A stretch of DNA of 26,037 nt from the IMG/VR virus record IMGVR_UViG_3300031772_002313, positions 1 through 26,037 of that record. The stretch is one strand, 5' to 3'. Both the position numbers and the translations under genes were made by a program. Source of the DNA: a virus. Numbering within the stretch: position 1 is the stretch's first letter; each line of letters opens with the position of its first letter. The notes under the pieces are model-generated. The model had not been told where the DNA came from. It saw only the letters and a list, made by a program, of their open reading frames with translations, and searched no databases. This document shows, one piece after another, positions 6,839-22,246 of this stretch.

Positions 6839-7828
6839 TCAGAGCAGCCAATTTGGATTTTCAATCGTCCATTTTACGATTCTACGGAGGGTCTCACCCA
6901 GAGGGAATGGATGTTTCCAACCGAAGTCTCGTAGTGCCGTCCCGTCCAGAGCATACCGTCTATCGTGACCCGGTCTGACACTGTGAAAATCCTCAAACCT
7001 ATAATTAGCCGTCTTACCCATTATTTCAGCAACCCGCCTTGCCAACTCCAAGTTTGAAACCTCTTCTTGCCCCACAACATTGTAACGACTCGGCCTCTGC
7101 GCGTCCGGACCGTCTTGGTAGACCCGAGGGGATAGATTTTCCATCAAAAACAGCCATGCATCGGCAAGGTTTTTGGCATCAAGATACATACGAGAACCAA
7201 TCCTATCTGGAGTGCCATGAACAACAATCTCTTCCCCGCGATAAATCGCCCTGATAATTTTAGGGAGATACTTTGATACCTCTTGTCGTTCTCCAATCAT
7301 ATTCATAGTATTCGTAATGACAATAGGGACACCATAAGTTCTCCAATAAGAAATACACAGGGCTTCCTGCGCAGCTTTAGAAGCAGAGTAGGGATTAGAG
7401 GGGATAGCCGTTTCCCATTCTGTGTGATAATGACCGTCTGGAGCAGGTCCGAAGACCTCATCCGTCGAACACTGAATGAACATCTCGATGTCTCTCCCTC
7501 GCACAAACTCAAGGATGTTTCCAATGAGTTTTGTATTGTTTTCCCAGACATGGAGTGGTTCTTTCATAGACAGGTCAACATCAGAACAGCTTGCGAGGTT
7601 TAAGACGTAGTCGATTTTCCCAAACTCAGCTGCCAGACGGGTACTTATAGGAGCGTTCAAGTCGTGGCAGTAAACCTTGTATCTTTGGTCTTTTTGAACG
7701 CGTAGGCTGTCTCCGGCGTGGCGGAAAGAATCCAGCCCTATAAGTTCCCAGTCTGTTTTCTCCAGATACCACTCCACTACATGATGACCTACAAAACCAC
7801 CAGAACCAGTAATTAGGAGTCGATTCAT
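6839..7828 (-). CDS. NAD-dependent sugar-nucleotide dehydratase/epimerase (RmlB-like SDR)
   Basis: This 329-residue extended short-chain dehydrogenase has the Rossmann glycine motif GSGGFVG at 8-14, an NAD-selecting Asp in GLD near 31-33, LNLAS at 76-80, and the active site STDEVFG at 121-127 with Y147 and K151 in YSASK. The Thr-Asp-Glu triplet after Ser is diagnostic of dTDP-glucose 4,6-dehydratase-like enzymes rather than simple 4-epimerases. The nucleotide-binding RMYLDAKNLADA segment is also present. The length is normal for the family. It would make a 4-keto-6-deoxy or related nucleotide sugar in the cytoplasm. With the glycosyltransferase and two methyltransferase-type genes downstream, it fits a phage-encoded route to an unusual sugar. 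The exact substrate cannot be fixed. Confidence 0.9.
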   Translation of the reverse strand: MNRLLITGSGGFVGHHVVEWYLEKTDWELIGLDSFRHAGDSLRVQKDQRYKVYCHDLNAPISTRLAAEFGKIDYVLNLASCSDVDLSMKEPLHVWENNTKLIGNILEFVRGRDIEMFIQCSTDEVFGPAPDGHYHTEWETAIPSNPYSASKAAQEALCISYWRTYGVPIVITNTMNMIGERQEVSKYLPKIIRAIYRGEEIVVHGTPDRIGSRMYLDAKNLADAWLFLMENLSPRVYQDGPDAQRPSRYNVVGQEEVSNLELARRVAEIMGKTANYRFEDFHSVRPGHDRRYALDGTALRDFGWKHPFPLGETLRRIVKWTIENPNWLL

Positions 7829-7882: not shown

Positions 7883-8237
7883 TACTCGGCGGGGGTGTTT
7901 GCAACAACGGCGGCAGCTAACTTAGCCGAGGTCGCATCAAGCGTATTGGCAAGAGCCAGAATCTTAGCGGGGTCATCCTTAATCGCAACCAACTGCGCGG
8001 CAATACCCTCAATCAGGGCGATTGCAGAGTCAACTGCAACGGTATTCTCTTCTACCTCAGTGGTCAACGTGTCGAGTTCAATGGTCATATGTATCTCCTT
8101 TTTTAAAATTTCCTTCGTAAGATGAAGGAGTTTGTCGAGTTTTTCGTTTACGTCCAGATACTCCATCGTGTGATGGTAAATGTCAAATCGCATTGCTGCA
8201 CCTCCCACAAAAAAAGTATAAAACCTCCGCACTCTCA
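7860..8237. repeat. 15-nt perfect inverted repeat bracketing one gene
   Basis: TGAGAGTGCGGAGGT at 7860-7874 is the exact reverse complement of ACCTCCGCACTCTCA at 8223-8237. The arms flank the gene at 7882-8193. One lies upstream of its ribosome site; the other overlaps the terminator-like hairpin after its stop. Confidence 0.85.
7882..8193 (-). CDS. Small helical tail-region protein with two in-frame starts
   Basis: The longest reading (start 8244) has no ribosome site. ATG at 8193 has GGAGG 7 nt upstream and gives 103 residues. A second in-frame ATG at 8088 has AAGGAG 6 nt upstream and gives 68 residues. Both sites are strong, so a long and a short product are likely. Residues 1-35 of the long form contain an amphipathic, coiled-coil-like helix (YLDVNEKLDKLLHLTKEILKKEI). 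The short form is Ala/Leu/Val-rich and helical (VAVDSAIALIEGIAAQLVAI, then DPAKILALANTLDATSAKLAAAVVANTP), a pattern common in small proteins near phage tail genes. The function is unknown. The gene is bracketed by the 15-nt inverted repeat and followed by a terminator-like hairpin. Confidence 0.75.
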   Translation of the reverse strand: MRFDIYHHTMEYLDVNEKLDKLLHLTKEILKKEIHMTIELDTLTTEVEENTVAVDSAIALIEGIAAQLVAIKDDPAKILALANTLDATSAKLAAAVVANTPAE

Positions 8238-8244
8238 CCTCCAT

Positions 8245-8271
8245 ATTGTAGGATATTCATTAACTTTTCAA
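8245..8271 (-). promoter_or_regulatory. Possible promoter for the small helical gene
   Basis: TTGAAA (8271-8266) and TACAAT (8250-8245) are each five of six consensus bases, but the spacer is only 15 nt. It lies in the gap between 8281 and 8193. The transcript would carry the upstream inverted-repeat arm in its leader. Confidence 0.35.
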
Positions 8272-8280
8272 GTCCTTTGT

Positions 8281-8475
8281 CTATAACCATACAGCTTCGT
8301 CCTTCGTATAAGGAGTGCTGGCGACCCAAACCCCACCCGTATGTACCCAGACGGTTGTTGTAAGAGTCCAAACCCCTCCGACTTTAACATAAACAGTTCC
8401 CCTATCTTCAACGCTAACTACAAAGCCTTCTTCGACATCTACTTCTTCTAAACTATTAATGAAAAGGTCAGCCAT
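8281..8475 (-). CDS. Small hypothetical tail-associated protein
   Basis: This 64-residue protein starts with ATG at 8475; AGGAG lies 6 nt upstream and overlaps the stop of the preceding mini-gene. The first 20 residues are acidic (LEEVDVEEGF). The rest is Val/Trp-rich with a repeated strand pattern: YVKVGGVWTLTTTVWVHTGGVWVAS. This GGVW pattern resembles short modules found in phage fibres and adhesins. There is no membrane segment. It lies just after the large fibre gene, so a small tail-tip or fibre accessory role is likely; I cannot name the family. Confidence 0.72.
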   Translation of the reverse strand: MADLFINSLEEVDVEEGFVVSVEDRGTVYVKVGGVWTLTTTVWVHTGGVWVASTPYTKDEAVWL

Positions 8476-8484
8476 AGTAATCTC

Positions 8485-8604
8485 CTATATCTTGAACACC
8501 CTACGACCCTTAAATACAACTTCTTGGTGTGCCAAGCAAATGAGAACTATATGCCACGAAAGCCAGAGTATGAATCCAAAACAACAATAAATTCTTTCAA
8601 TCAT
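8485..8604 (-). CDS. 39-residue single-span membrane mini-protein
   Basis: ATG at 8604 opens a 39-codon ORF just after the fibre stop. The sequence is MIERIYCC, then a hydrophobic segment (FGFILWLSWHIVLICLA, about residues 9-25), then a basic tail ending KGRRVFKI. This is an Nin/C-basic single-span layout. Its TAG overlaps the AGGAG of the next gene, the packing seen at other junctions here, which supports a real gene. The weak point is the start: only GGT, no good AGGAG. A holin- or lysis-associated role is possible, but there is no endolysin in the window, so I assign no function. Confidence 0.5.
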   Translation of the reverse strand: MIERIYCCFGFILWLSWHIVLICLAHQEVVFKGRRVFKI

Positions 8605-8606
8605 TA

Positions 8607-11051
8607 TTATACCGGATTCTTATATCTGAATTGAACTAATCCGGCCCCTCCCGGTGCGTTTGTGTAATGAAGTTTAGCAGACCCGCCTCCCCCTCCTCCC
8701 GGTGCTCCTCCTGCTACTCCTTCGTGCGATGTACCTCCTCCGCCACCACCCCCATAGGCAGGAGTAAATCCGTATAATGGCGGAAGATTATTAACACTTG
8801 GGTCTCTAGAATTAGTTCCATCTATAAACTTTCCTGCGGAAGACCCCCCATCCAAACCAACAGTTCCCCCATTTCTATAACCATTTCCTCCTGAGTAAGC
8901 CACATCAGCATTGACACAACTTCCCGCCGCTCCGCCAACTCCTGCCGCAGAAGGAGAGCCGTCCGTACCCGGAGCCGCAGATAAAATAAGTGTTGGGTCT
9001 ATTTCTTCTATGCGTACATCGTCGATATATAGATTTACAACACCAATTATTGTTTGTGGATGCCACATATCAAATATTATCTTGTAATCTGTATAATCTG
9101 GATGGGCGTAAAATAATATAGTTGTTTTTACCCACACATCTTCGTCTGGTAGGCCGTTCTCTATTGTATAAAAGTCCGTAGTCCATCCTTGACTCCAAAT
9201 ACCGTCGCCTTCGGTCCACTGAACAGATACAGTTTCACTTGTATCACAAAGATGTACGCCTATAGGCCAATCATTTACTGAGTTTTTCTGTCTAGTCCAA
9301 TAAGATAGTCTATACAAAGAGTTAGGAGTTAAATTAAAACTTTCATCCGAAAAAGCCCCAGTCTTTGAGTCTTCTGTAAGGTCTACCCTAATACACCTTA
9401 ATCCTTCGTGGATTATTGAACTCTCTTCATTTATAGTTTCCTCGCCATAACTTATAAGATTCCAATTCGTAGGAGTATGCTCATCTGTCCAATTCTCAAA
9501 TCCTCCATCTTCAATTTTTTGATTGGAGACATCTCCTTTGAACACCTCCGTGTGTTCTCCACTGCCCTCATTAAGAACACTATAGTAGTAGTCCCCCGGT
9601 GATACTGTTATTGTTCTCTGAGCAAATGCTCCCCCGCCCCCGCCTCCGCCGCCATAAGTAGAACCTCCAGCCCCGCCTTTTCCACCATGTCCCCAAGCCT
9701 CAACGATTAGTTCTGTTACTCCCGCAGGAACTGTTATTTCATATAGAACGGTTGTCCAAGATATTTTGGGTGCAACCATAGCAAACATATATGAATTAGA
9801 GTAATAATATTCTTCCCCCTCAATGGTAGAATCAGCATCGTATTCCGCTTCAAGTACCAATGTCAAAGCATTATATTTTCTAACGTGAGTAACATCACTA
9901 TCAGCACTATGAACTATAAGAAAGTATAATGAACCGTTATAGTAAACAAGTCCATATACTCCTACTACTTCATTCGCTCCGCCAAGATTCAATCTGGTAA
10001 CATAGGATAAATCCGAACATCTATGAACTTTTAATTGACATCCTAAATCGAACCCACCATCCAACATATAAAGATAAGTATTATCAGTAACTATAGCCAT
10101 AGGCCATATAAACTGATTATCCCCCAAACCGTGGCCTATAACTCTACTAACTAAACTGAGGTCGCTGCAAAGATATTTGCTCAAGGACTGCGAGTCATTA
10201 TCGTCATTTGATGTGACATAAAGATGAGTCCCATCAGTGCAAATTCCGTCTGGGTGTATCCAATCAATTCCTTCTCCCTCGGTCCAAACAAGTGTTTGAG
10301 CAACATAGGATAAATCGGACATTGCATACTTAACTATTCTAGAATTAGACCAATCGGCAACATAAACATATGTTCCGTCCGAGCAAATCTGCTGTGTTAC
10401 CCAAAGAGGCCACGTAATGTCTTCGGGATTTTCGGGGTTTGGAATATAAGCATTACTCTCCGCTATAATCTCACCAGTTTCAGCATCTATCTTTGAAACA
10501 GAGTCCTTATACCCGACAAACCCATTGTTACTCCCCCACCCAACTGCATAAATGTAACCTTCGTAGTAACAGACTCCAGTAAACCAAACTGGAGAGTCCC
10601 ATTCACCGTACCAGAAAGGACTTACCATCATGTAACCTTCTGGAGCAACAGTATCTAAATTATGCCAACGCCACGCAAAATCATTGTATGCACCATTAGA
10701 GACCATAAGAAACAAATCTTCTATGGGCGTTTGAAACCATATATCACCGTCCTCACCTCCGGAAGGACTATCACTACTTATGGTAATTTTATGTTTCCAT
10801 TCAGGGAGGTCGTTGTCCAACGTAAGTATTTCTCCATTTCTATCTCGCGCAAGACGTTCCCATTTATCTCCTACAGAACCTCTAACAATATCTCCTTTTG
10901 CAACAGTATCATTATCGGTATCGGGATGAACGGTTCCGTCTAGAAGATTATGGATTCCTACGGGTCCAATACTTCCGGCGTTCTTTATCAACTTCTTAAG
11001 ATTTATAATTGCTCGCGCATACTCGGAAATTTTTACATATCTTTCAGCCAT
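8607..11051 (-). CDS. Tail fibre with beta-propeller, Gly-rich and carbohydrate-binding-like domains
   Basis: The ATG at 11051 is chosen over the longer reading (11126) because AAAGGAG lies 7 nt upstream; this gives 814 residues. Residues 1-100 match the N-terminal module of many fibres: HNLLDGTVHPDTDNDTVAKG, VRGSVGDKWERLA. About 150-400 form NHL/propeller-like repeats, with recurring ICSDGTYVYVADWSNSRIVKY and SDLSYVAQ/SDLSYVTR elements. About 445-475 is a Gly-rich segment with eight Gly in a row. About 510-685 resembles a carbohydrate-binding module (GGFENW...NW start, VNLYIDDVRI end). About 695-810 is a second Gly-rich segment. It probably binds a host-surface glycan or protein. The start overlaps the DUF483-like gene by 8 nt. 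A fibre role is well supported by domain content; the ligand is unknown. Confidence 0.85.
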   Translation of the reverse strand: MAERYVKISEYARAIINLKKLIKNAGSIGPVGIHNLLDGTVHPDTDNDTVAKGDIVRGSVGDKWERLARDRNGEILTLDNDLPEWKHKITISSDSPSGGEDGDIWFQTPIEDLFLMVSNGAYNDFAWRWHNLDTVAPEGYMMVSPFWYGEWDSPVWFTGVCYYEGYIYAVGWGSNNGFVGYKDSVSKIDAETGEIIAESNAYIPNPENPEDITWPLWVTQQICSDGTYVYVADWSNSRIVKYAMSDLSYVAQTLVWTEGEGIDWIHPDGICTDGTHLYVTSNDDNDSQSLSKYLCSDLSLVSRVIGHGLGDNQFIWPMAIVTDNTYLYMLDGGFDLGCQLKVHRCSDLSYVTRLNLGGANEVVGVYGLVYYNGSLYFLIVHSADSDVTHVRKYNALTLVLEAEYDADSTIEGEEYYYSNSYMFAMVAPKISWTTVLYEITVPAGVTELIVEAWGHGGKGGAGGSTYGGGGGGGGAFAQRTITVSPGDYYYSVLNEGSGEHTEVFKGDVSNQKIEDGGFENWTDEHTPTNWNLISYGEETINEESSIIHEGLRCIRVDLTEDSKTGAFSDESFNLTPNSLYRLSYWTRQKNSVNDWPIGVHLCDTSETVSVQWTEGDGIWSQGWTTDFYTIENGLPDEDVWVKTTILFYAHPDYTDYKIIFDMWHPQTIIGVVNLYIDDVRIEEIDPTLILSAAPGTDGSPSAAGVGGAAGSCVNADVAYSGGNGYRNGGTVGLDGGSSAGKFIDGTNSRDPSVNNLPPLYGFTPAYGGGGGGGTSHEGVAGGAPGGGGGGSAKLHYTNAPGGAGLVQFRYKNPV

Positions 11052-11883
11052 GGCACGACTCCTTTGGTATAAAAGTTCCGTCTGTCCTAACAACGAATCT
11101 TTCAAGAGTAGGGACAGACTGAACAACGATGTAGAATATAGGTGTTTTCACCATCCCTATCCCATGAAGACTACTCCATTCCATAGGCATCTGTAAAAGA
11201 GAATCTAAAATCATAGACAAGTCCTTATTCTTAATACGGGCTAGATTCATTCGCTCTGTAGACAAAGCGATAGTTTCACCACAGTTAAAAGAACAAGGGA
11301 TGTGAAATCCTATCCTTACTCCAATATAGCGAAGAAGAGGATTTGAGTACGGATGAGATTTTACCAGAATGAGATTTTCATTTTCTTCTATCGCGGGGGA
11401 GGCTTGCGCCGCTTGCCACATCGGGTCAAAGAACCCTCCAGACCACGACTCGTCAAAAAATTTGCAGCAGCACTTTGGAAATCCTAACATAACACCCTGA
11501 CGATAGTTGTCTCCGTTTATAAAGGCATCCTTAAAATCCAAACAATCCTTAATAGTCCTTGCTACAACCAAACAAACAGACGCGGGTTGTCCACTCCGAG
11601 GTTCTTCGTGTTTGTGAGAAAATCCACCAAACGAAACCACTCTTTTCAGCGGAAGAGAAACAAGTCCGTGTTCTGCCCATCTTGCAGAAGATTCTGGAAC
11701 TGACTCTTCGCCAATAGTCTGCCACGCGCACAATCTATGCTCGGCAACAACACTATCTACTTCAAGTTCATGAACCAAAGCAGAAATTTTATCCAGAGGG
11801 TCTTTCCATGTATCCTTAGCCTTTTGAGAAAGCCATATCATTCTTGAAAATGACCCTGTATTAAAGTTCTCTATAAGGTTCAT
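11044..11883 (-). CDS. Cys-rich DUF483-like partner of the radical SAM enzyme
   Basis: This 279-residue protein contains LGFPKCCCKFF at 133-143 (C138, C139, C140), resembling the GYP-x-CC motif of DUF483-type proteins. A second motif, FHIPCSFNC at 193-201, follows SNPLLRYIGVRI. These Cys and the nearby His could bind a metal, an Fe-S cluster or a thiol-linked intermediate; that is inference. No membrane segment or signal peptide is visible. Its ATG overlaps the stop of the radical SAM gene as TAATG, a strong sign that the two proteins are made together. The family has no function I can state. A partner, accessory or second maturation enzyme for the hub protein is the best guess; the DUF483 assignment is from memory of the motif. 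Confidence 0.65.
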   Translation of the reverse strand: MNLIENFNTGSFSRMIWLSQKAKDTWKDPLDKISALVHELEVDSVVAEHRLCAWQTIGEESVPESSARWAEHGLVSLPLKRVVSFGGFSHKHEEPRSGQPASVCLVVARTIKDCLDFKDAFINGDNYRQGVMLGFPKCCCKFFDESWSGGFFDPMWQAAQASPAIEENENLILVKSHPYSNPLLRYIGVRIGFHIPCSFNCGETIALSTERMNLARIKNKDLSMILDSLLQMPMEWSSLHGIGMVKTPIFYIVVQSVPTLERFVVRTDGTFIPKESCHG

Positions 11884-13193
11884 TAAACTCCTGCCTTTAC
11901 TCTGTCAGTATGGTCCCCATGAGGACAATCTTTGTAAGGAGAAAGAGTAGAATTTAATGATTTTCCATCCTTAATTGTCTTCAGTTGATTTTCAGTCAAC
12001 CTTCTATCGGACCTCCAACTACTTCCTCCGGGCATTAAATTTGCCACAGCTACAGCAGGAGAAGGAAACAGTTTATTACCAGACAAGGTTAGCATATTAG
12101 GAAACAAGCCTATAATTTTATTCTCTATATGACTGAACAGAGTTTTCCAAGCCAGACAAAAACGAGTTTTGTTTCTCCAGTCATCATCAATTGCCTCTCC
12201 CGGACACCCCCCTTTGCATATCATCCAAAACTTACAGTCTTTACATCCTCCAAAAGCTTGAGGAGTTTGAGCAAGGGCCAGATAACGCTCGCTGGCGTAA
12301 GAATCAGCTGCCAGTACCTGAATACCGTCAATCGCCCCTCCACCCTTTAAACAATTACCTAGATTACCTTCCTCATCGATTGTTGTTTCTGAAGATGTTT
12401 TCCATATATCACATTCAGTAAAAACACAGGTTTGTTGCATATGCCCCAGCATTAGGTCAACAACATCCCGATAAGGCTGCCAATCAAGGGCGGGGTCAGA
12501 AAAGCAAGTATCAGAAAGAACAGAAAAAGAATATCCAAGGGAGCCGGAATCAAGTTCTTCGTATGGAAATTTTTTCTTGTCGTAGACAACCCCCTCATTT
12601 GTTCTAACGCTGGTGCAATTAAATTCATTCTTCAGCCGGAGAAGAAACTTTATGAATTCCGGTAAGGATTCTTTTGAGGCATTATACTGCCGCAGAACCG
12701 ATATTACACTAATAGACAGTCCAGCATCCGAGCATTTTTTCATATTCTGAAGAACAAGCTTTGTTCCTTCCTCTATTTCATTAACCGGAACAAATCGGCT
12801 ATTCCACCTACCAAAGTTAAGTTTAGATGTATCTCCATCTAGGCTAAACCCTATATGTGTTTGAAACTGTTTAAAAATATCAATGTGCTTCTCGGTTAAA
12901 AGAAGTCCATTTGTCTGTATCGTAGTTCTTCCCCACAACTCATATGTTGTTTCTAAAATTTTATTAAAATCTTCTATTGGAACTAACATAGGTTCCCCGC
13001 CATGAAAACAAGGGGTTGCCCTCTTTTTTCTGTCGTTCCTGTCGTCCTTTGATACTTTATTACTTTCTTCTCTGAGTCTTTTAAGTATTTTATCAATGTC
13101 GTACTTTTTAAATCCTACTCTATCTCGTATTTTTGTTTCGTAACACGAACCGCAAAGACCATTACAATTAAGGATTTTTATATTGTATCCCAT
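11883..13193 (-). CDS. Radical SAM/SPASM peptide or protein maturase
   Basis: This 436-residue protein starts almost at its cluster motif. C10, C14 and C17 (CNGLCGSC) form the CX3CX2C site for the SAM-cleaving 4Fe-4S cluster. GGEPM at 65-69 binds SAM, and TIQTNGLLL and IGFSLDGD follow as core strands. The SPASM region is complete: C256 and C261, G276 then C281, and C317-X2-C320-X5-C326-X3-C330, then C346, ligands for auxiliary clusters. Such enzymes modify peptides or proteins by radical chemistry, for example thioether or C-C crosslinks. Residues 365-436 form an extra tail ending CPHGDHTDRV, which copies the hub protein's HxD motif. It lies 9 nt after the hub gene and overlaps the DUF483-like gene, so the hub is the likely substrate. 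The chemistry is unknown. Confidence 0.9.
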   Translation of the reverse strand: MGYNIKILNCNGLCGSCYETKIRDRVGFKKYDIDKILKRLREESNKVSKDDRNDRKKRATPCFHGGEPMLVPIEDFNKILETTYELWGRTTIQTNGLLLTEKHIDIFKQFQTHIGFSLDGDTSKLNFGRWNSRFVPVNEIEEGTKLVLQNMKKCSDAGLSISVISVLRQYNASKESLPEFIKFLLRLKNEFNCTSVRTNEGVVYDKKKFPYEELDSGSLGYSFSVLSDTCFSDPALDWQPYRDVVDLMLGHMQQTCVFTECDIWKTSSETTIDEEGNLGNCLKGGGAIDGIQVLAADSYASERYLALAQTPQAFGGCKDCKFWMICKGGCPGEAIDDDWRNKTRFCLAWKTLFSHIENKIIGLFPNMLTLSGNKLFPSPAVAVANLMPGGSSWRSDRRLTENQLKTIKDGKSLNSTLSPYKDCPHGDHTDRVKAGV

Positions 13194-13202
13194 ATTGCTA
13201 CC

Positions 13203-15740
13203 CTAGAACTGAGAATCTGCGTGAGACATATCAGTATGAACGTCTGCGTAAGAATCCCCATGTGCGCAGTCAATATGAGGAGTATCCAAGTGACCAACAA
13301 TAACCTCCATAATATTTTGGTGTTCCACAAAAATACGAGTTGCTTCATCAGAATAACCACTTGCATCATCCCACAGATACCAAATTCCAGTATCTCCATA
13401 ATCATACCAATTAATAAACGGAGGTTCCGGTGGTCCCATCCAAGTACTAACTTTTTCACCATCCAAATAATCATAATGGTCAGGGTGCATAGTATAATCT
13501 ACATGTTCCAAATGCGCCCAATGCCCTAAATCCGTATGATAATCTGAATAATTATCTGTGTAAGCGTCTCCGTGGTCCACATCTGCATGGGCAACATCTC
13601 CGTGGTCAGCATCAGCATGCTCAACAGAGGATATGTCTGTGTAAACGGCTTCGTGTGAATCTTGGTAGGCAGTATCGGCATGGTAATTTCCATAAGACTG
13701 AGAGTCGTCTACTCCCGAGAAACCAGTACTGGCTGGGGCTAAGTTCTTCTGAAACTCAAGAACGCGATAAACTGCATCAGCAAGAACGGTTATGTCATTT
13801 CCATTAGAGTCCTTTATAGTCTTGGAAATAATAATCTTATCGGATGGAAGAAGATTGAATCCGTCCATCCCCATAATACCTTCAACGGATTTTGGAGGGA
13901 CTTTTACCATCGCCAGATAAAAAGTAGCCAAAAGAGTAGCTTCTGTCGGGTCGTAAAGGGCTGTTTCTACCGTAAGAACACCCTTTTCCTTATATCGATA
14001 TTTTACCTTGTCATCAAAAACAGTAACTTTCTTTAGCTCCCCAGTTCCGCAGTTTTTATCATAATTTAATATGACAGTATGATATGTTCCATCAGTAGAA
14101 TACTTTAGGCCAAGTTTTTCTAAATCCTCTTTATAAACTCTGACAGCCCCCTCCATGGCAGAGGTATAGTATTTAAACGTCCAAACGCCATCCATTCTCG
14201 GAATACAATGGAAAACAGCCGATTGCTGGAAGATTCGTATAAGGTCCAAAGCTGGCATCGAAGAATCTAGATAGAACCCCATCTTTGCTGTCCGAGCCGC
14301 ATTAAGTGCCAGCAAAGACGAAATATCTATATTTTCATATGGTATTGAGTTAAGAGTATTAAGAATAAAAAAAACACCATCCCCAAATAGCTCCGACCAC
14401 GTTCCAGAACTAGAACACTTTACTCCCTTGACATCGCAGGTAACAACAAGGTCGTTGATGTTATTGACTAAAGTTATTGTTGCGTCAGTAAGATTTACAG
14501 AGTAATCCGAAGGAGTTAATAAAACTCCGCCACGGTAAACATTTGTCACTTCCTCTATTGGGTAAGCAGAAATTTTATATTTGTATATAGACTGGTTGGA
14601 TTGTACTGCAATTATTCCTTTGCATGTACCAAACGGAATTGGAATAGGAGAGCCATAACTACTTTCCTCAGTATATTGATATTCGGGAAGTAGAGGGTCA
14701 AATGTCGTCAGGGGTATGTCCCTAAGTTCATTGACCCTACTATCAGTGACTTCAAACTCCGCTTGCTCATCATTGATAGTAGGATTTCTTACAATCCCTA
14801 TAAATAAGGTCTCAAAATCGGAATAAGGGGAGCCTTCTTCTGCAACTTTAACGTAGACTGAAGCATTGTGCCATATTATTGATTCAAATGCCCAGTACAA
14901 CCAACCATCATTAACAAAAGTCAAAGAGCCAAATTGTATCTGCAAGTCTCCAATATAGTAATCTCCAACTCCTTGAGTTATTGTCGGAAATGATTCATCG
15001 TTCAGATAAGGAAGATAATAAACTTCATGCAATGATAATGTAGGATTGGCTACGGATTTAGGACTATAAATAACCCTATTATCTTTGGGTTGTCTGTTTG
15101 TAAAACAAACATTAAATCTTGCTATAATACAATAATCATAAATTCCTCCGGTTTGGGTTGCCGGACTGTTATTTCCAGACGTATGAATATAAAGAGTTTG
15201 ATTATTAAAATCAAAGTAGAATGACGAAGCGGTACTTTGACAAGCTCCGATACTAGCAGTCGGAGTGTAGGATATCAAGGCATATACACCACCCTTAACT
15301 GCTCCTTCTTCAACAGCATCTACTTCTCCGTATGTAAATGAACTGAATGGAATTGACCAAGCCCCCGAAGAATCAACCCAAGATTCTCCTTCTATTTCCC
15401 TGCCCGCATGAACTTCAACAATAAATACTCTCCCTATATCGGGTTCCGCCGCCAAGAGCTGAAAAGATGAGAGTAATCCGGAAGTAAACCCTTTCTCTGA
15501 TACAATAATGTTGCTTTCTGCAACAGAAAGAAAGTATTCAGGAAGAAGAGTTGAATTTACATCTTGTACCACTATTGTGGCAATACGAGTTGGAATAACG
15601 ATAGTTCCACTACTCAAATTTTTTGATTCAGATATGGTTACTGTGCTAGAAAGCACCGGAACAATAATATCAGAGAGAACAAGTGTGCTAGTCTGAGAAA
15701 CTGATATTATATCAACTACAGATATGTCAATGTCGGGCAT
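13203..15740 (-). CDS. Tail hub/tip protein with His/Tyr-x-Asp repeat C-terminus
   Basis: This 845-residue protein sits where siphoviruses encode the central tail hub. Residues 1-85 are beta-repeats related to those of the left-edge fibre (TLVLSDIIVPVLSSTVTISE). About 90-660 form the hub body: LFIGIVRNPTINDEQAEFEVTD, the PIPIPFGTCKGI segment typical of phage tip proteins, then a region ending VYRVLEFQKN. From about 684 the protein changes to dense [H/Y]-x-D motifs spaced 4-5 residues apart, broken by a Trp/Pro/Gly-rich section at about 765-800 and resuming at 816-845. The start has GAGGT about 5 nt upstream. The hub role comes from position and segment resemblance. That the tail is a substrate of the adjacent radical SAM enzyme is inference. 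Confidence 0.82.
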   Translation of the reverse strand: MPDIDISVVDIISVSQTSTLVLSDIIVPVLSSTVTISESKNLSSGTIVIPTRIATIVVQDVNSTLLPEYFLSVAESNIIVSEKGFTSGLLSSFQLLAAEPDIGRVFIVEVHAGREIEGESWVDSSGAWSIPFSSFTYGEVDAVEEGAVKGGVYALISYTPTASIGACQSTASSFYFDFNNQTLYIHTSGNNSPATQTGGIYDYCIIARFNVCFTNRQPKDNRVIYSPKSVANPTLSLHEVYYLPYLNDESFPTITQGVGDYYIGDLQIQFGSLTFVNDGWLYWAFESIIWHNASVYVKVAEEGSPYSDFETLFIGIVRNPTINDEQAEFEVTDSRVNELRDIPLTTFDPLLPEYQYTEESSYGSPIPIPFGTCKGIIAVQSNQSIYKYKISAYPIEEVTNVYRGGVLLTPSDYSVNLTDATITLVNNINDLVVTCDVKGVKCSSSGTWSELFGDGVFFILNTLNSIPYENIDISSLLALNAARTAKMGFYLDSSMPALDLIRIFQQSAVFHCIPRMDGVWTFKYYTSAMEGAVRVYKEDLEKLGLKYSTDGTYHTVILNYDKNCGTGELKKVTVFDDKVKYRYKEKGVLTVETALYDPTEATLLATFYLAMVKVPPKSVEGIMGMDGFNLLPSDKIIISKTIKDSNGNDITVLADAVYRVLEFQKNLAPASTGFSGVDDSQSYGNYHADTAYQDSHEAVYTDISSVEHADADHGDVAHADVDHGDAYTDNYSDYHTDLGHWAHLEHVDYTMHPDHYDYLDGEKVSTWMGPPEPPFINWYDYGDTGIWYLWDDASGYSDEATRIFVEHQNIMEVIVGHLDTPHIDCAHGDSYADVHTDMSHADSQF
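13206..13690 (-). repeat. [His/Tyr]-x-Asp repeat region of the hub protein
   Basis: About twenty HxD or YxD motifs are encoded here. The first block (13690 to about 13430) reads YHAD, YQD, YTD, EHAD, DHGD, AHAD, DHGD, YTD, YSD, YHTD, EHVD, HPD, HYD. The last block (13295-13206) reads GHLD, PHID, CAHGD, YAD, VHTD, SHAD. The period is 4-5 residues, and codons vary between copies, so the pattern is held at protein level and not by DNA duplication. Confidence 0.85.
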
Positions 15741-15742
15741 TC

Positions 15743-16504
15743 TTACCTCATTTTTTCAAGGCCGACATCAAGAGTCCAGTTGTTCCAGTTCACATAGGTC
15801 CAATCAAATTTAAAAAATCTTACATAATTAGTAGTGACATACGGGTCTAAGGTATCTTCTGTAAAGAAAAACCCCTTATGAGTTCCTGCCGAATCAAAAA
15901 CAAGCTGAAAGTATGGTTTCTCTAGTGGAGTGACGTTGGAGAATTTAAACGATTTAGTCCAATACTTATCTTTAACTACAGACGATAATTGTCCGCCCTC
16001 GCTGGCCCGGATAGAACTAGGGTCAAGCTGAGGAAGTTGCTCTCCATAATCATAGTTTCTAGTCGGTTCAAAGTACGGACCAAGATAATTCAGACCAACC
16101 TCAATATAGCTATCAGTATTAGAATCGTCGTCTATAAAATGTCTCCAGTATTGATAATAATAATCAGCCCCTAGAAACTGTATCATAACATCGTTGTTAA
16201 TTACGGGAAATGTATAATCATAAGAGGGTCCACCCCAAGAATTCGATGCGTTCCCCTGAATCTTTACAACCGCAGTTGGACTAAAATTATTGAACTTCGT
16301 TATAAAAACCATCACGTTATTGGACGGAAGCGGAGTACCCCTATCACAAATTAAATATTGGTCGCTAACTTGTCCTGTTTCTGACCTCCAAGTTCTTGTG
16401 AACCAACGGTGCTGAGAATTCGATACAGGAAAATTGGGGTCAGCCGAAGAACCAGTAACCACACTAGGAACCCACTGATTATTGTACATAAATCGGCATT
16501 TCAT
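15743..16504 (-). CDS. Distal tail-like protein with galactose-binding-type fold
   Basis: This 253-residue protein lies directly between the tape measure and the hub, the usual place of a distal tail (Dit) protein. Residues 20-150 read like a discoidin/galactose-binding jelly roll: NFPVSNSQHRWFTRTWRS, then strands with ICDRGTPLPSNNVMVFI, then YYYQYWRHFIDDDSNTDSYIEVGLNYLGPYF. The C-terminal part (KYWTKSFKFSNVTP...FFKFDWTYVNWNNWTLDVGLEKM) is a second beta domain. ATG at 16504 follows the tape measure stop directly, with GGGGT shortly upstream inside that gene. The position strongly suggests a tail-tip component; the fold call is by pattern only. Confidence 0.65.
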   Translation of the reverse strand: MKCRFMYNNQWVPSVVTGSSADPNFPVSNSQHRWFTRTWRSETGQVSDQYLICDRGTPLPSNNVMVFITKFNNFSPTAVVKIQGNASNSWGGPSYDYTFPVINNDVMIQFLGADYYYQYWRHFIDDDSNTDSYIEVGLNYLGPYFEPTRNYDYGEQLPQLDPSSIRASEGGQLSSVVKDKYWTKSFKFSNVTPLEKPYFQLVFDSAGTHKGFFFTEDTLDPYVTTNYVRFFKFDWTYVNWNNWTLDVGLEKMR

Positions 16505-19500
16505 TTAGTACCCCCGAACACTCTTTGGATGAGTCAGGAATGTTTCTCTTTTCGACATAGCCTCAAGCTGAGGGACGATTTTCTTTCTAATAACAGCGTC
16601 AAAAGAATCTGCATCTATGGTAGAGACATTGAACTCATTATTAACCTCGACCTTAGACGACCCTGCCCGGATAGCTATCACAAGGTCGCTGAGGATTTTC
16701 CTAATTTCCCCCGTGTCATCCCCTCGGGCGGCAACCTTAACGACTTCTCCGGGATGCATCCGGAAGAGCTGTGACTTACTACCCATCTGCCAAGTACCCC
16801 CCTCCTTTGCCTGTATGACATCCTCTCCATTTGCCGAAACATTGACTTCTGCAGAAGGAGTTGGCAAGTCGTTAATACTCTTCCCAAGGGTATTCATGGC
16901 TTCTGTCGCCGTCACAACTCTCGCAATCATATCGTCAATCGGATTTGTAATAGCCGACATCTTGATAATAGTATCTTCAACTGCAGCCTGCGTACTAGAA
17001 GAAACTTCTGCCATTGCTTCTTTTGTGGTCATGCCAGCCTGTAGTAAAACCTCATATAAATCATCTGTTTTTATAACGGGGGTAATATTAATAGGAGTTT
17101 CAGGAGGAGTAGTTTTTTTCAGGGCATCCGCAGCTTCTTGCACCGCAGCTAATGAAACATCTCTAGCTTGCTCCTTAGCAGCCGAGGCAGCCTCTTCTCC
17201 AAACTCCTTGACCCGCTTCATAGACTCTCTAAACGCCTCAGGAACAGCCCCGCCAAGGGCGCGGATTATCTCTCCGAACCCAGCCATCATGATATCGTTA
17301 GTCTGAAGCTGCTTCTTAGACATGAGTCCCTGTTCTTCGGCCTGCTCAATCAAATGTTTAGTAGTATCGTCAATCTGATACCCATATTCCTCTTCCATGA
17401 ACCTCAACCGCTCAAGGGTTGGGGCGATTTGGGAAAGCGACTGCTTTTGCGTAAGACCAGCCTCCATCATCTTCTGGTAATAATCAAGCATCGCCCCTTC
17501 GGAGTCAGAGAAAATTTCCTGCGTCATTGACCCTGTATTAAGAAGGGCATTCATAACAGCTAGATTTCCCTCTACCGCAGCGAACAACTCCTCGTTGGCT
17601 TTCTGGACGTTACGGATTTTAAGTAGTTCAGTAATTGCAGAACTTGCCGTTGTTCCCATTAACTTGTGTTTTTCAACTATTGCATCAAGCACGGGCGCAA
17701 GAGAGTTCAGAGCATCAATAAACGAGACCCCGTTCTTTGTCATGGCATTGAAGGTTGCCATAGCCTGCCGTTCTATCCGCGCAAGAGCAGGAACGACATC
17801 CCCTGCCATACCTGCCATCTTATCCTTTATGGCCTTCAACTTATCCTCAATACGAATCCTTTCCCACGGCTTGAGAGCATTATCTGCCAACTTCTCCATC
17901 AGGGCCGTCTGCTCTTCTGCCAACTTTGTCAGTCCCGGACCAGCTGCGGCAATCATCATTTGTAATCCCTGAACGGCAGAAAGTGTGCCTCTTTGTGTCA
18001 CTCCAAGCATCCCGTAGACATAATCTGTAATTTCCTTGACCTTTAGTCCAGACTGCATGACCGTAGTGATAAAGGTTGTCATAGACTTGGAACCAAGAGT
18101 TCCCATTCTTTCAGCCCCCGCCAAAAGAAGGTCAAAGGATTTTCCTAAACTCTCGGCGGCCTCCTCCGCTTTAAGCGTTCCTTTGTTGTATTCGGTAAGA
18201 GCAGCAATAGACTTACCCCAGAGGGCATTAATATTACCAATATTAACTCCCATAGCCTCAATCATAATTGAAAACTTGTACGCTTCCGCAGCCGCCTTCC
18301 CCATTTCTTTATACAGACTTGTTACTTGTGCCGCCGTTTCTCTTGTTATTTTTCCATAGCTGCTCATTTTTGCAACTAGAGCGTCTGTATATTTTTCAAG
18401 TTCTTCGGCATCTTTTTCGGCTTGTGTTTTTGATTTTTTGAAAAGCCCTCCAAGAATACCGCCAAGAAGGGATGCAACAGCAGTAACGGCGGCTACAACA
18501 GCCACACCAACACCACCAATAATTACCAAAGCTATACCAGCTACCAGCCCACCAACAGCAGAACCCTCAGCCGCATATGTTCTTCTTCCAGCCGCTGCTC
18601 CCATAGCATTTCCAATAGAAGTTCCAAGAGCAGCCGCAAGCTCGGGGCCAATCGCTACCAGCATATCAGTTACTGTAGCTTTTATTTTTACTGTGGATTT
18701 TTTATTATTCTCTGCTATCTCTGCAAATTTAGCAGAAATCCTTCCCCCAATCTGTCCAATTCCAACGGCAACCTGACCCCAAGATGATAACACTGCTGCC
18801 TTTGTTTGTATTGTCTGCTTTTGAAGATAAGTCATATCGTCCGTAATATTTTCCACCATTCGGGAAGCGGAATCAGCCATTGACTGCCCAACCGTACCGA
18901 AAATTCCCCCAGCGACAGAGAATACGGCAGACCAAATAAAGTTAATATCTGTAGCCGTAGCCTCATGAAGTTTTTTTATCTCGTCCATCTCTTCTGCAGT
19001 AGCCCCAACACCCTTTTTTCTGAGTTCTTTGAGCCTAGCATACATTTCTTTATTTGTAACTATTTCTTTATCTTTGAGTCTAACAATATTTTTAATAATA
19101 GGGTCCATCCACTGAGTTTTCCAGACGAGCAATCTCGCTTGGTCCGCCCCCTTAGCGGAGGCCAGAGAACTTTCGTAAGCGGCCCCTATCGTTGCTGCTT
19201 GTGTTTTAAACGCGGCGAGTAAGTCCGCTTGTTTTTTTGGGTCACTCTCGGCTGCTAAATCCCTGCGAAATTGAGCATTAGCTAAATCCAACTCGGCATC
19301 CTTCATGCGCAACTGCAAGCTTAAATCAAGCTTTATTTTTTCATTTTTATAGTAGTCTTCTATAAGCCTAGCCTTTTCAGCATACAGTTCGTTCCACTTG
19401 AGTTCTTCTGCGGTAAGAGCTGCCATGACTGAGGCATGACGAGCCTCCTCCAATTTTATCGCTCCCTGATAAGCTGCAGTTTTAGCCGTAACTGGTTTTT

Positions 19501-22246
19501 TAGATACGGGCTTATCATAACTAGCAAGTTCAGTCTCTATATCCAGCAAAGCCTTTCCACTTTCCTTTGCCGCCGACACCGCTCCAGTTACCCAAGACTT
19601 GAACTGGTCCTTGCCCCAGTCAGCCCACTCCCTTTGCTTTTCTTTAAGATTATCAAAAACAGTTATAATCTGTTGTGCATACTCATCAATATTTTTGAAA
19701 GACCTTTCAAATGGAGTTAATGTAGTTTGAATCAGGTTTTTAAATTCATCGGTTCCTTTACCCGCAGCTCCTCCAAGAGCCTTAAGGGAAGCAACATACT
19801 TATTAACATTTCCTGTGCGCGAAAATTCAGCATTAATTGAGTCAAGGGCTATTTGTAACTTGACTGTTTCTGTTTTTTGCTCTTCCACAGTTGTAATACC
19901 GTAAGAAGCAGTTATAGCTCCTTTCTGGCTTGCAGATAGGGATTTTCCTTGCTCTATAGCTAGAAGGGCTTGCTGAAGAGTTAATTTTTTAGTTTGCTCG
20001 GTATATGTCTGTAAAGATATCTTTCCACGAACATATTCACCATGTACACCCTTCAGTTGTTTTTCTATAAGGGTATACGCTTTTTCTTGTTTTTCTTTAT
20101 CTTTAAGTCCCTCTTCTACAAGAAGAGAATATGCTTCCTCTATCGTATAAGCTTGTCCAAGAGCCATTTTTCCTTTTGTAATAGAAACTACGAGTGCATT
20201 TGTCATATCAACTGTAAGCAAGCCCGCCTTACTAAGTCTTTCTAAATTTTCTATATTCAAATCTAGAGTATCATTTAAATCTTTTATTGTTTTTACACCG
20301 AGATTACTAAGGTCATCATCTAATTGTTTTATTCTCTTTTTCAATTCATCCGTTTTAACGGCGGAAAGAAAATCAGGTTGAAACTGCTCTAAATAACTTA
20401 AAACAGATATATTATTTTTTGCCCCGCTTGCCACAGCAAGAAAAAATTTATTTACTCCATCTTCTCCCTTACCAAATTCTTTTTCTATTCCTTCCAGAGT
20501 CGTACCCGATAATTTTAAAGCGTATTGAAATGCCTTAACTGATAATATTCTGGCAGCTCTTGCCTTTTTTTCTTCTTCTGAATAAACCCCAAACCAACTA
20601 TTTACAGCTTTAGTTCCTGCATCTCCGATACGCATAAAAAATTGTGATGCATCTATAACCGCATTTTCAATCCATTTAATTCCTCCCTCAGTAGTATCAA
20701 GTATATTATTAGCAAAAGTATCTATTCCGTCTGTTATATCATTTCCAACATCTACAATTTTTGAAATTACGTTTTTACTATTGGCAGATTTAGTAGAATT
20801 TGGCTCTTCTTTGACGGGCTTGAACATATTATCTTCGTCACCAAACTCTTTAAGTTTTTTTCTGGCAGCTCTAAGTTCTTTATCAACATTTTCTCCCCAT
20901 TCTTTAAGAGGATTCCCATGCATCTTGTACTCATTAACTTTTGTAAGATAATCATACAGAGTTACCAATCCACCAATAACGAGCGTAATAATTCCAGCCC
21001 AGCCAATAAAAGCAGCTGCTTTATTCATAGCCAATGTAGACAATCTTGCCGCTTCCGATGCATCTTTTACACCCTTAAGATTAACTATATACCTAGCCAA
21101 AACTTGAGTGGCATTATTTACCGTACTCATAAGAGTACCAAAAATGGCTATCAATGGAGATACAGCCGTCATAAGCAAAACAGCCTTTACTCCGGTAGAA
21201 GCGATGGCTCCGGCAGCCTCTTTATGTTTTCCTATCCAGCCATTCATACTCTTAACAACCTCAACTATCCAACTCACATATGATTTTAAGGTAGGAAGCA
21301 TCTCATCAAGTAGTTGATAATAAACACCTTTAAGACCAAGTTTCATCTCCTCCATTTTTCCACTAAAGTCTTCTGCGGCCCTAGCGGTCTTCTCACTAAT
21401 AACCGCTCCAAGTTCTTCCGCCGCTTTCATAGCTTCTTTTAATCCTTCCGGACCAAGATTCAAAAATGGAATCAATGCTCTTCCATACCTACCCATTAAT
21501 ATTTGTGAAACTTGTAACTTCTTTCCTACATCGTCCATTTCAGCAAGTGTTTTTGAAACATCCATAAGAACGTCTTTAATATTTCTTTTCTGCTTTGTTG
21601 CAACATCCACAAGTTCAATACCGTACTTTTTAAATGTCTTTGCCATCAAAGATGTTTGTTTTTCTGCCATCGCCATATTTCTACCAAGTTGTTGCATACC
21701 ATATCCAACATACTGTAAAGAAACCCCAGACTTTGCCGCAGCCAGTTGCAAAGCAGACAAGTCTTCTACAGAAACACCAGTCCGTTGATGCATATACCAA
21801 AGACTTTCAGCATAAGCCAACGCCTGTTTTGTTGCCATAACCGCACCCGCAGTAATAAGCGTAAATATGGCAGTAAGTTTCATTCCTATTTGTTGTATAG
21901 CTTGACCACTCTGTGTAAATGAATTTATAAATCCACCAAATTTCTGGTTCACACCAGCCATTACTTCACTAAGTCCCCCCATAAAGCCCTTCGCTACATC
22001 TATAGCAAAACCAAATTTTCCAGCAAATCCCTGAGCCTCTTGAAACCCCTTTGCCGTTGCTGAAAGAGCTTGGCGCAAACTCATCGTAGTCTGTTCCATC
22101 CCCCCAACAGCCGCCCCTACCCCCTCGGTAGCCACCTTCATCTTGTCTGTGGCATTAACGTAATCGTCTCCAAAATTAATTATAGAGACAGACCCTTGAT
22201 TATCGAGTGTGATTACAAAAGGAAGTTCTAACTGTTCATTCGCCAT
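16505..22246 (-). CDS. Tail tape measure protein
   Basis: At 1913 residues this is the longest gene, placed directly after the tail chaperone frameshift gene as in most siphoviruses. It is mostly alpha-helical and Ala/Lys/Glu-rich. The first 300 residues have typical tape measure features (AVMATKQALAYAESLWYMHQRTGVSVEDLSALQLAAAKSG region). Hydrophobic segments lie near 125-140, 352-372, 405-430 and 1229-1270, the last Gly/Val/Ala-rich; such segments may insert in the host membrane during DNA entry. The C-terminus contains FRMHPGEVVKV, common in tape measures. It sets tail length and is ejected ahead of the DNA. The start overlaps the chaperone extension by 11 nt. No lysozyme or peptidase domain is obvious. 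Confidence 0.95.
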   Translation of the reverse strand: MANEQLELPFVITLDNQGSVSIINFGDDYVNATDKMKVATEGVGAAVGGMEQTTMSLRQALSATAKGFQEAQGFAGKFGFAIDVAKGFMGGLSEVMAGVNQKFGGFINSFTQSGQAIQQIGMKLTAIFTLITAGAVMATKQALAYAESLWYMHQRTGVSVEDLSALQLAAAKSGVSLQYVGYGMQQLGRNMAMAEKQTSLMAKTFKKYGIELVDVATKQKRNIKDVLMDVSKTLAEMDDVGKKLQVSQILMGRYGRALIPFLNLGPEGLKEAMKAAEELGAVISEKTARAAEDFSGKMEEMKLGLKGVYYQLLDEMLPTLKSYVSWIVEVVKSMNGWIGKHKEAAGAIASTGVKAVLLMTAVSPLIAIFGTLMSTVNNATQVLARYIVNLKGVKDASEAARLSTLAMNKAAAFIGWAGIITLVIGGLVTLYDYLTKVNEYKMHGNPLKEWGENVDKELRAARKKLKEFGDEDNMFKPVKEEPNSTKSANSKNVISKIVDVGNDITDGIDTFANNILDTTEGGIKWIENAVIDASQFFMRIGDAGTKAVNSWFGVYSEEEKKARAARILSVKAFQYALKLSGTTLEGIEKEFGKGEDGVNKFFLAVASGAKNNISVLSYLEQFQPDFLSAVKTDELKKRIKQLDDDLSNLGVKTIKDLNDTLDLNIENLERLSKAGLLTVDMTNALVVSITKGKMALGQAYTIEEAYSLLVEEGLKDKEKQEKAYTLIEKQLKGVHGEYVRGKISLQTYTEQTKKLTLQQALLAIEQGKSLSASQKGAITASYGITTVEEQKTETVKLQIALDSINAEFSRTGNVNKYVASLKALGGAAGKGTDEFKNLIQTTLTPFERSFKNIDEYAQQIITVFDNLKEKQREWADWGKDQFKSWVTGAVSAAKESGKALLDIETELASYDKPVSKKPVTAKTAAYQGAIKLEEARHASVMAALTAEELKWNELYAEKARLIEDYYKNEKIKLDLSLQLRMKDAELDLANAQFRRDLAAESDPKKQADLLAAFKTQAATIGAAYESSLASAKGADQARLLVWKTQWMDPIIKNIVRLKDKEIVTNKEMYARLKELRKKGVGATAEEMDEIKKLHEATATDINFIWSAVFSVAGGIFGTVGQSMADSASRMVENITDDMTYLQKQTIQTKAAVLSSWGQVAVGIGQIGGRISAKFAEIAENNKKSTVKIKATVTDMLVAIGPELAAALGTSIGNAMGAAAGRRTYAAEGSAVGGLVAGIALVIIGGVGVAVVAAVTAVASLLGGILGGLFKKSKTQAEKDAEELEKYTDALVAKMSSYGKITRETAAQVTSLYKEMGKAAAEAYKFSIMIEAMGVNIGNINALWGKSIAALTEYNKGTLKAEEAAESLGKSFDLLLAGAERMGTLGSKSMTTFITTVMQSGLKVKEITDYVYGMLGVTQRGTLSAVQGLQMMIAAAGPGLTKLAEEQTALMEKLADNALKPWERIRIEDKLKAIKDKMAGMAGDVVPALARIERQAMATFNAMTKNGVSFIDALNSLAPVLDAIVEKHKLMGTTASSAITELLKIRNVQKANEELFAAVEGNLAVMNALLNTGSMTQEIFSDSEGAMLDYYQKMMEAGLTQKQSLSQIAPTLERLRFMEEEYGYQIDDTTKHLIEQAEEQGLMSKKQLQTNDIMMAGFGEIIRALGGAVPEAFRESMKRVKEFGEEAASAAKEQARDVSLAAVQEAADALKKTTPPETPINITPVIKTDDLYEVLLQAGMTTKEAMAEVSSSTQAAVEDTIIKMSAITNPIDDMIARVVTATEAMNTLGKSINDLPTPSAEVNVSANGEDVIQAKEGGTWQMGSKSQLFRMHPGEVVKVAARGDDTGEIRKILSDLVIAIRAGSSKVEVNNEFNVSTIDADSFDAVIRKKIVPQLEAMSKRETFLTHPKSVRGY

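Follow-up and report, generated by a model that had tools for sequence, protein, structure and literature searches.

A candidate maturation cassette for a viral tail protein: a hub with a triplet array, a radical SAM/SPASM enzyme and a DUF483-family partner

The array-bearing hub and the cassette genes

We examined a three-gene cassette in a 26,037 nucleotide (nt) virus record from IMG/VR, IMGVR_UViG_3300031772_002313, the whole of which is here called the window. The cassette comprises genes for a predicted tail hub that ends in an array of aromatic-x-Asp triplets, for a radical S-adenosylmethionine (SAM)/SPASM enzyme and for a Cys-rich protein, and all of its genes are on the minus strand. 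Along that strand the order is tape measure, small protein, array-bearing hub, radical SAM enzyme, Cys-rich gene and a glycine-rich, tail-fibre-like gene. The features of the cassette are:

13203-15740, minus strand: predicted tail hub of the T5 pb3 / lambda J type with a C-terminal triplet array, the proposed substrate (fold match)
13215-13682, minus strand: the array, 22 [HY]xD triplets in hub residues 687-842 (motif count and shuffle)
11883-13193, minus strand: radical SAM/SPASM enzyme, the proposed triplet-crosslinking maturase (over the cut-off of Pfam Radical_SAM, PF04055)
13143-13166, minus strand: CX3CX2C motif, C10/C14/C17 (invariant in 38/38 homologues)
12156-12428, minus strand: SPASM region, C256 to C346 (eight invariant Cys, CX14GX4C and CX2CX5CX3C spacing)
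11904-11936, minus strand: substrate-like C-terminal tail of the enzyme, YKDCPHGDHTD (triplet count in family members)
11044-11883, minus strand: DUF483-family partner with an invariant CC...C, its role a prediction only (Pfam DUF483 E 0.014, under the cut-off)

The TAG stop codon of the hub gene is followed by 9 nt and then by the ATG of the radical SAM gene, which overlaps the third gene at TAATG. A preliminary description of this DNA, made from the sequence alone, had reported this nine-nt spacing and the overlap, together with an intact CX3CX2C and a full set of SPASM cysteines in the enzyme, CCC and PCSFNC motifs in the third gene, and about twenty [HY]xD motifs at the C-terminus of a protein in the hub position. 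All of these were recovered here.

The hub open reading frame (ORF) is 845 amino acids (aa) long and contains 25 [HY]xD motifs, 22 of which lie in the last 165 residues and three in residues 1-680. In 10,000 shuffles of the hub tail the mean number of motifs was 5.4 and the maximum 14, and the observed 22 was never reached. Asp is found at distances of 1-7 residues from His or Tyr 2, 22, 3, 5, 4, 7 and 7 times, respectively.

When the hub was used in sequence searches, the sole match was an unnamed PHROG, and tblastn against 50,697 phage records returned no match. As hmmsearch of the hub alignment against PDB sequences gave one unrelated match (E 0.11), a fold search was needed. An AlphaFold model built from seven family members had a low overall predicted local distance difference test score (pLDDT, 42.7), reaching approximately 50-87 over residues 340-680. 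The best Foldseek match to the model was 7zqp_b from the T5 tail tip (E 1.3e-12), and all 44 matches at 0.001 or better were, by title, tail, baseplate or injection-system (VgrG-type) proteins. With VIA-align the best match was 9occ_E from the Sf11 tail (Z 11.8, root-mean-square deviation (rmsd) 5.2, 239 residues aligned, residues 356-683), and 30 chains matched at Z of at least 8. The matches include the tail hubs T5 pb3 and lambda J and those of T1, JBD30 and a gene transfer agent (GTA). The hub fold ends at approximately residue 682-688 and the array starts at residue 687; in the array part the pLDDT is approximately 21-29 and no confident fold is predicted. On the fold of this low-confidence model, the protein is a tail hub, in keeping with the position first assigned to it.

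In the radical SAM enzyme, 11 Cys are invariant among 38 homologues (C10, 14, 17, 256, 261, 281, 317, 320, 326, 330 and 346) and include the full SPASM spacing, by the consensus as we know it. We take the Cys from C256 to C346 to be ligands for two auxiliary clusters. Among NCBIfam models the window enzyme scored best with DynA, sulfatase maturase and YhhB, in each case below the cut-off. Every one of the 38 enzymes scanned matches the DynA, YhhB, AmcB, OscB and FxsB models at 1e-5, as well as the sulfatase maturase model TIGR03942, and 21/38 match the HxsB model at the same threshold. As the window enzyme is well under all curated cut-offs, we assigned it to a separate family. A 60-row tree places the 52 enzymes in a single clade (99/99), distinct from locus L009 and the outgroups; because the outgroup branches are long, the exact rooting is unsure. 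Viperin matches of the enzyme in PADLOC were weak and were put down to the common radical SAM core.

The window enzyme also carries triplets of its own, YKD..HGDHTD at its C-terminus, a feature missing from the preliminary description. At least two [HYW]x[DN] triplets, often as HGDHxD, are found in the last 70 residues of 48/52 family members (L009 excluded). This tail may be a self-substrate or a docking tail. In locus L198 (10403-12073) the enzyme bears a tandem run of C-terminal triplets and a second enzyme gene follows.

The KCCCK and PCSFNC motifs of the third protein contain three Cys that are invariant in 26 homologues (C138, C139 and C201), part of a set of ten invariant positions that includes E41, LG-P-CC, D153, G188 and C201. 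The protein scored 15.8 of the 25 bits required by Pfam DUF483 (PF04467), under the gathering score, and 16/26 of its homologues match DUF483 at E 0.001. It is 33-37% identical to the homologues in phages phiLo and Cumys, and with the annotated DUF483 protein Cumys_11 (37% identity) it shares LG[YF]PxCC and a downstream Cys. By sequence similarity, then, the third gene encodes a divergent DUF483 protein, an identity that the preliminary description had not given. A methyltransferase domain is present in at least 9/26 homologues, and several DUF483 partners reach approximately 440-500 aa (e.g. L014 1900-3363, L022 7019-8539 and L063 3966-5435). The partner model is confident (pLDDT 93) and had no Foldseek match at 0.001. 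The best fold match was 2guk, a protein of unknown function (Z 7.0, rmsd 3.2, 102 aligned), followed by NleE (Z 4.8, rmsd 2.6, 99 aligned), and no function follows from these.

Arrays, enzyme and partner across loci

A tblastn search of phage records with the enzyme returned four matches, namely the Thermus phages phiLo, Cumys and phiMa (29-31% identical) and a 5 kb record, L009. In two of these phages the enzyme gene is preceded by that of an array protein, Cumys_13 with 59 [HY]xD motifs and phiMa_29 with 60, and in Cumys the gene after the enzyme is annotated as DUF483. Profile scans of IMG/VR gave 30 loci by the enzyme and 52 by the DUF483 protein. A profile scan of genomes gave at least 72 loci, one of which, L091 (Chengkuizengella), was close among the matches listed. 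The 87 enzyme loci, window included, were grouped into 53 clusters at 90% identity, from which L001-L005 (the window or near-identical records) were excluded.

In the stretches examined, a DUF483 gene was present in 51/53 clusters, missing only at L009 and at L030, in which the contig ends. Seven or more [HY]xD per 60 residues were found in an ORF in 46/53. In 44 of these 46 the array was upstream on the same strand, at a distance of 100 nt or less in 33 of the 44, and with a 1 or 4 nt overlap in 15. When the general motif [HYWF]x[DN] was counted at the same threshold of seven per 60, in enzyme-strand ORFs only except at L006, an array was found near the enzyme in 49/53 clusters. At L009, which has no array, the enzyme scores over the sulfatase maturase cut-off and adjoins an arylsulfatase, and there is no DUF483 gene.

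As controls, 71 loci of other radical SAM families were used, and none reached five [HY]xD per 60 aa. With the general motif at seven per 60, 2/71 were positive. One, L141, has eight motifs in a single stretch, probably by chance. In the other, L146, the enzyme is over the GrrM/OscB cyclophane cut-off (398.5 versus 310 bits), and this locus acts as an unplanned positive control. L146 is from Oligoflexaceae, and there, at 925-1275 and 1355-2509, the enzyme is beside a 116 aa peptide of WKDWKN repeats, to which no NCBIfam model matched and which is likely to be an unannotated triceptide precursor.

In the converse scan, IMG/VR was searched for four consecutive HxDx units, with the enzyme left out of the query, giving at least 120 loci. 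Most of these were tandem DNA repeats or unrelated or wrong frames. When 20 or more motifs were required in an ORF, with no less than 60% of its His in HxD/N, 19 of the matches listed qualified, and the enzyme is present in the stretch in 16 of the 19 (nine records already known and seven new). Neither L248, where the array is cut by the contig end, nor L267, a 19 kb fragment, has the enzyme on its record, and the L264 array, on a 40 kb record without the enzyme, was judged to be an artefact, an overlapping frame inside a longer ORF. The 276 aa protein of L267, a viral fragment, has 39 motifs (2011-2841). The preliminary description had named a maturase found beside unrelated genes, and arrays found mostly without it, as the outcomes that would count against it; the figures of 49/53 and, among the matches listed, 16/19 go the other way on both.

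The same three genes were found beside a baseplate J gene in a haloarchaeal plasmid (L294) and in two Bacillota genomes (L297 and L298). The enzyme is rare in bacterial genomes. At E 1e-50 it was found in 3/398 sampled genomes of the phylum of genome G011 (Bacillota), the starting genome included, and in 0/398 sampled genomes of the phylum of G012, a search without a positive control.

To define the triplet, spacing statistics were collected from 56 array regions (11,867 residues), each with at least seven [HY]xD per 60 aa; the F-rich and mixed arrays of L063, L081 and L086 were excluded. The residue at +2 of the 2037 His is Asp in 1781, Asn in 164 and Glu in 20, and Ser in just 3/2037. A spacing of 2 is 3.9-fold over shuffles, while spacings of 1, 3 and 4 are depleted to 0.26-0.37 times. 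After each of the four residues His, Tyr, Trp and Phe, D/N has its peak at +2 (z 76, 10, 10 and 5, respectively). Starts of successive triplets are mostly 3-7 residues apart, with overlap in 21/2210 and never a distance of 2. Proline makes up 0.1% of the x residues versus 9.6% of linkers. When homologous arrays were compared (nine pairs pooled, leaving out Cumys and phiMa, whose sequences ahead of the array are 99% identical), identity was 95% at His, 93% at Asp, 44% at x and 50% in linkers, the contrast being an upper estimate (see below). Shuffles, control loci and the constraint on H and D rule out that the array is a product of chance or low complexity.

The letters of the triplet vary. 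In L298 the array is of a Trp/Tyr/His type, with D/N at +2 for 17/18 Trp, 32/32 His and 18/26 Tyr. The arrays of L063 and L081 are mostly Phe-x-Asn and that of L086 is mixed. We conclude that the triplet is the conserved unit and that arrays differ in letters while sharing the same grammar. Strict co-variation of the array letter with the enzyme clade was considered and is unsupported.

The array carriers are diverse. There are 66 array ORFs across 49 loci, and the array ends 15 residues or fewer from the C-terminus in 58. ORF length is over 200 aa in 44/49 loci and 183-195 aa in five, among them L029, where the ORF starts at the contig end. A GSxW-type motif is present within the first 180 residues of 29 array ORFs from 28 loci, and no confident Pfam domain was found in GSxW-type N-termini among the array proteins scanned. 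Stand-alone array proteins (L007, L091, L198, L294, L297, L063 and L081) often have a common N-terminal repeat of the GSxW[IV]E...YxD..G..R type. When ten further array proteins were compared with PHROGs and Pfam, four matched known families and six matched nothing. The L012 array protein is a J-type hub by sequence (phrog_31, E 4e-47; PF13550 over its cut-off), those of L039 and L085 carry a lectin domain (LamG), and that of L042 is glycine-rich and also contains the hub family of the window. Among ten upstream neighbours searched against PHROGs, L033 gave 'tail protein and host specificity' and L074 a methyltransferase, and for the remaining eight there was either no match or one of unknown function. 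NCBIfam models gave no match to the arrays tested, except for spurious weak matches of FxN repeats. It is difficult to see why several unlike carriers should share a single array grammar and a single enzyme family unless the two are substrate and enzyme. The substrate class, first described as an H/Y-x-D hub, holds for the window and is wider in the family, taking in W-x-D/N and F-x-N triplets and carriers beyond hubs.

The other genes assigned around the cassette are:

16505-22246, minus strand: tape measure protein (several PHROG tape-measure families, best such 2.5e-26)
15743-16504, minus strand: small protein between the tape measure and hub, in the distal-tail position (phrog_8610, function unknown; role from gene order only)
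8607-11126, minus strand: probable tail fibre, glycine-rich, perhaps with carbohydrate-binding domains, downstream of the cassette (PF21722 over its cut-off, PF02018 below)

Elsewhere in the window, 6839-7828 is a nucleotide-sugar dehydratase/epimerase gene (phrog_540, E 4e-77), which hints at sugar or glycan modification. Residues 221-272 of the protein encoded at 1599-2501 match DNA polymerase II small subunit models (E 4e-15, far under the cut-off).

Possible reactions on the array

The comparative evidence strongly supports the proposal, first made for the window, that the HxD tail is the substrate of the maturase, and the array protein is very probably what the enzyme acts on. Pairs joined in three-residue cyclophanes include Trp/Phe to Asn/Asp/Ser/Arg, Tyr to Asp or Arg and His to Ala or Arg, examples being YxdB with C3(Tyr)-Cb(Asp), HaaB with C2(His)-Cb(Ala), OscB with Trp-Cb(Asn/Asp) and MscB with Phe-Cb(Ser) (PMC11002830). 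By sequence, the array triplet is the motif of such enzymes, and we think it likely that the cassette serves to close array triplets into three-residue cyclophanes.

We infer a phage-encoded maturation cassette for a structural protein of the virion. Its substrate would be a C-terminal run of aromatic-x-Asp/Asn triplets that looks disordered and that, in the window, is joined to the tail hub. The radical SAM/SPASM enzyme would travel along the array and close each triplet by a carbon-carbon bond from the aromatic ring (in most cases His C2, in some Tyr, Trp or Phe) to the C-beta of Asp/Asn, as in triceptide (3-CyFE) enzymes, with two hydrogens lost per triplet. The DUF483 protein would be a dedicated partner, and our guess is that it acts in recognition or delivery or carries out a second tailoring reaction; in many relatives it is fused to a methyltransferase. 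Stapling would leave the tail tip with an extension that is stiff and resists proteases, and such stiffening is plausible.

Several points weigh against the proposed crosslinking. The texts examined contained no characterised cyclophane of the His-x-Asp type. The window enzyme is under every cyclophane-family cut-off (67/445 bits for YhhB, 45/370 for FxsB and 39/310 for OscB), and its best solved relative is the anaerobic sulfatase-maturating enzyme (anSME; E 4e-28), followed by the cyclophane synthase ChlB (E 8e-20). The identity contrast between triplet and linker positions is an upper estimate, since H and D serve as anchors for the aligner, and members are shared among four of the nine pairs. 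The Phe-x-Asn arrays of L063 and L081 also match Pfam pentapeptide repeats, and array type tracks enzyme phylogeny weakly (three changes for the F-rich label, with 33/500 shuffles as low). In phiLo, the three adjacent arrays (62, 108 and 77 motifs) lie on the strand opposite to the enzyme and begin 4.4-8.2 kb away from it. The stretches examined at L013, L070 and L076 yielded no array, the first two being whole contigs of approximately 8 kb and the third having its enzyme approximately 800 bases from the end of a 55 kb contig. L293, a haloarchaeal (Halorussus) plasmid, has the enzyme and a DUF483-like gene within 8001-10206 and no over-threshold array ORF within approximately 8 kb. Finally, the control loci are from cellular genomes, not from phage tail modules.

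The enzyme could act on the triplets and leave a different product, such as C-beta hydroxylation or epimerisation of Asp/Asn, an imidazole C-N or ether link, or a His modification. SPASM enzymes catalyse many reactions, and the methyltransferase domains of the partners suggest at least one more step. His-x-Asp lacks a characterised precedent among the texts examined, and the best NCBIfam match of the window enzyme is the maturase of dynobactin, which contains one C-C and one C-N crosslink (PMC11002830). We nevertheless regard another product as rather unlikely, since both residues are constrained at exactly +2, with D/N but hardly E in the third position and H, Y, W or F in the first, a pattern that a ring-to-C-beta bond fits better than a one-residue change. 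Metal binding fares worse. The two residues of HxD bind metals well together, and in known spike tips of phages iron is coordinated by His, so the array might be an unmodified metal-binding or charged tail, the enzyme serving another substrate or merely tuning metal ligands. However, WxD and FxN arrays occur, though Trp and Phe side chains bind no metal and Asn is a poor ligand, Glu is nearly absent from the third position, and the enzyme and DUF483 partner are near-constantly present. With Trp and Phe in the triplets, plain chelation is unlikely, and we consider this explanation as a whole quite improbable. Thus, among the modifications first suggested, crosslinks in the form of three-residue cyclophanes are favoured and metal sites are not.

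A Viruses 2024 paper (PMC11437467) described a module of radical SAM, DUF483 and unknown genes in Cumys, phiMa and prophages and suggested DNA modification, and homologues lie beside deazapurine genes in some cyanobacteria (PMC11437467). That the radical SAM/DUF483 pair modifies phage DNA seems to us highly improbable, as the near-constant neighbour of the enzyme is the array protein, the enzyme's own tail mimics the array, and the word 'histidine' does not occur in the main text of that paper, as far as it was available. We give still less credence to a sulfatase-maturase-like enzyme that makes formylglycine, with the array a coincidental neighbour. Besides anSME being the best solved relative, TIGR03942 matches all 38 enzymes, as noted above; the window enzyme, though, is far below the anSME cut-off (70 versus 349 bits). 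The Asp that follows a SPASM Cys in anSME, presumably the catalytic base, is Gly or Leu in the three family enzymes aligned. The one true anSME of the set, L009, differs in its surroundings, being beside a sulfatase, without DUF483 or an array.

Returning to cyclophane formation by the cassette, a broader proposal, towards which we lean only slightly, is that an old system for making cyclophane arrays on virion proteins (up to approximately 110-130 triplets per chain), a tail-tip material unlike known folds, is common to tailed viruses of both bacteria and archaea, with the enzyme stapling its own HGDHxD tail as a tether or switch. Radical SAM crosslinking of peptides is known from small peptides and cofactors. 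If the proposal is right, the cassette would represent a new way of building virions, found across very different phages and a haloarchaeal provirus, and, to our knowledge, the first radical-SAM-matured virion protein. It would also be the first cyclophane polymer of the His-x-Asp and mixed H/Y/W/F kind. A natural enzyme placing tens of staples in each chain could help in making stiff peptide materials, and there would be a lead on DUF483, with a first role for this family. As the cultured phages Cumys, phiMa and phiLo, whose host Thermus thermophilus HB8 is harmless, carry the cassette, the proposal is directly testable.

Comparison with known systems

In the open-licence PMC literature, where long result lists were covered in part, no report of triplet arrays was found, and no papers beyond PMC11437467 were found that link radical SAM enzymes or cyclophanes to phage tail proteins. 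A close likeness is to the triceptide systems (XncB, OscB/GrrM, MscB, YxdB, HaaB, YhhB and ChlB), in which a radical SAM and SPASM enzyme also adjoins an aromatic-x-N/D(/S) substrate and the aromatic residue can be W, F, Y or H (PMC11002830). The window family differs in that its substrate is a large protein, at some loci a hub or a lectin-domain protein, with tens to over 100 triplets; at 183 aa or longer, the array ORFs are not small precursor peptides. It differs further in its DUF483 partner, the substrate-like tail of its enzyme and its separate clade, and its window member is below all cut-offs.

The Thermus phage module contains the same three genes, the radical SAM protein Cumys_12 and the DUF483 protein Cumys_11 being homologous to the window genes. 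In PMC11437467 the third protein is called unknown, and the passages at hand describe neither a triplet array nor a tail role.

Two other radical SAM systems invite comparison. In His-Xaa-Ser systems (HxsA-D), a radical SAM enzyme accompanies a substrate with His-x-polar repeats, and the HxsB model matches part of the window family. Here, however, the third triplet residue is D/N, not S, and the setting is a phage. The anaerobic sulfatase-maturating enzyme acts on a whole protein, and it shares with the window family a similar pattern of SPASM cysteines in addition to being its best solved relative, whereas the Asp after the SPASM Cys is absent from the window family and the window enzyme is far below the cut-off.

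In its modelled fold, the window hub resembles T5 pb3 and lambda J over residues ~300-685. Lambda-like hubs continue into a central fibre where the window hub has its array. The C-terminal extension of the window hub is thus a run of triplets in place of fibronectin type III (FNIII) domains and a central fibre.

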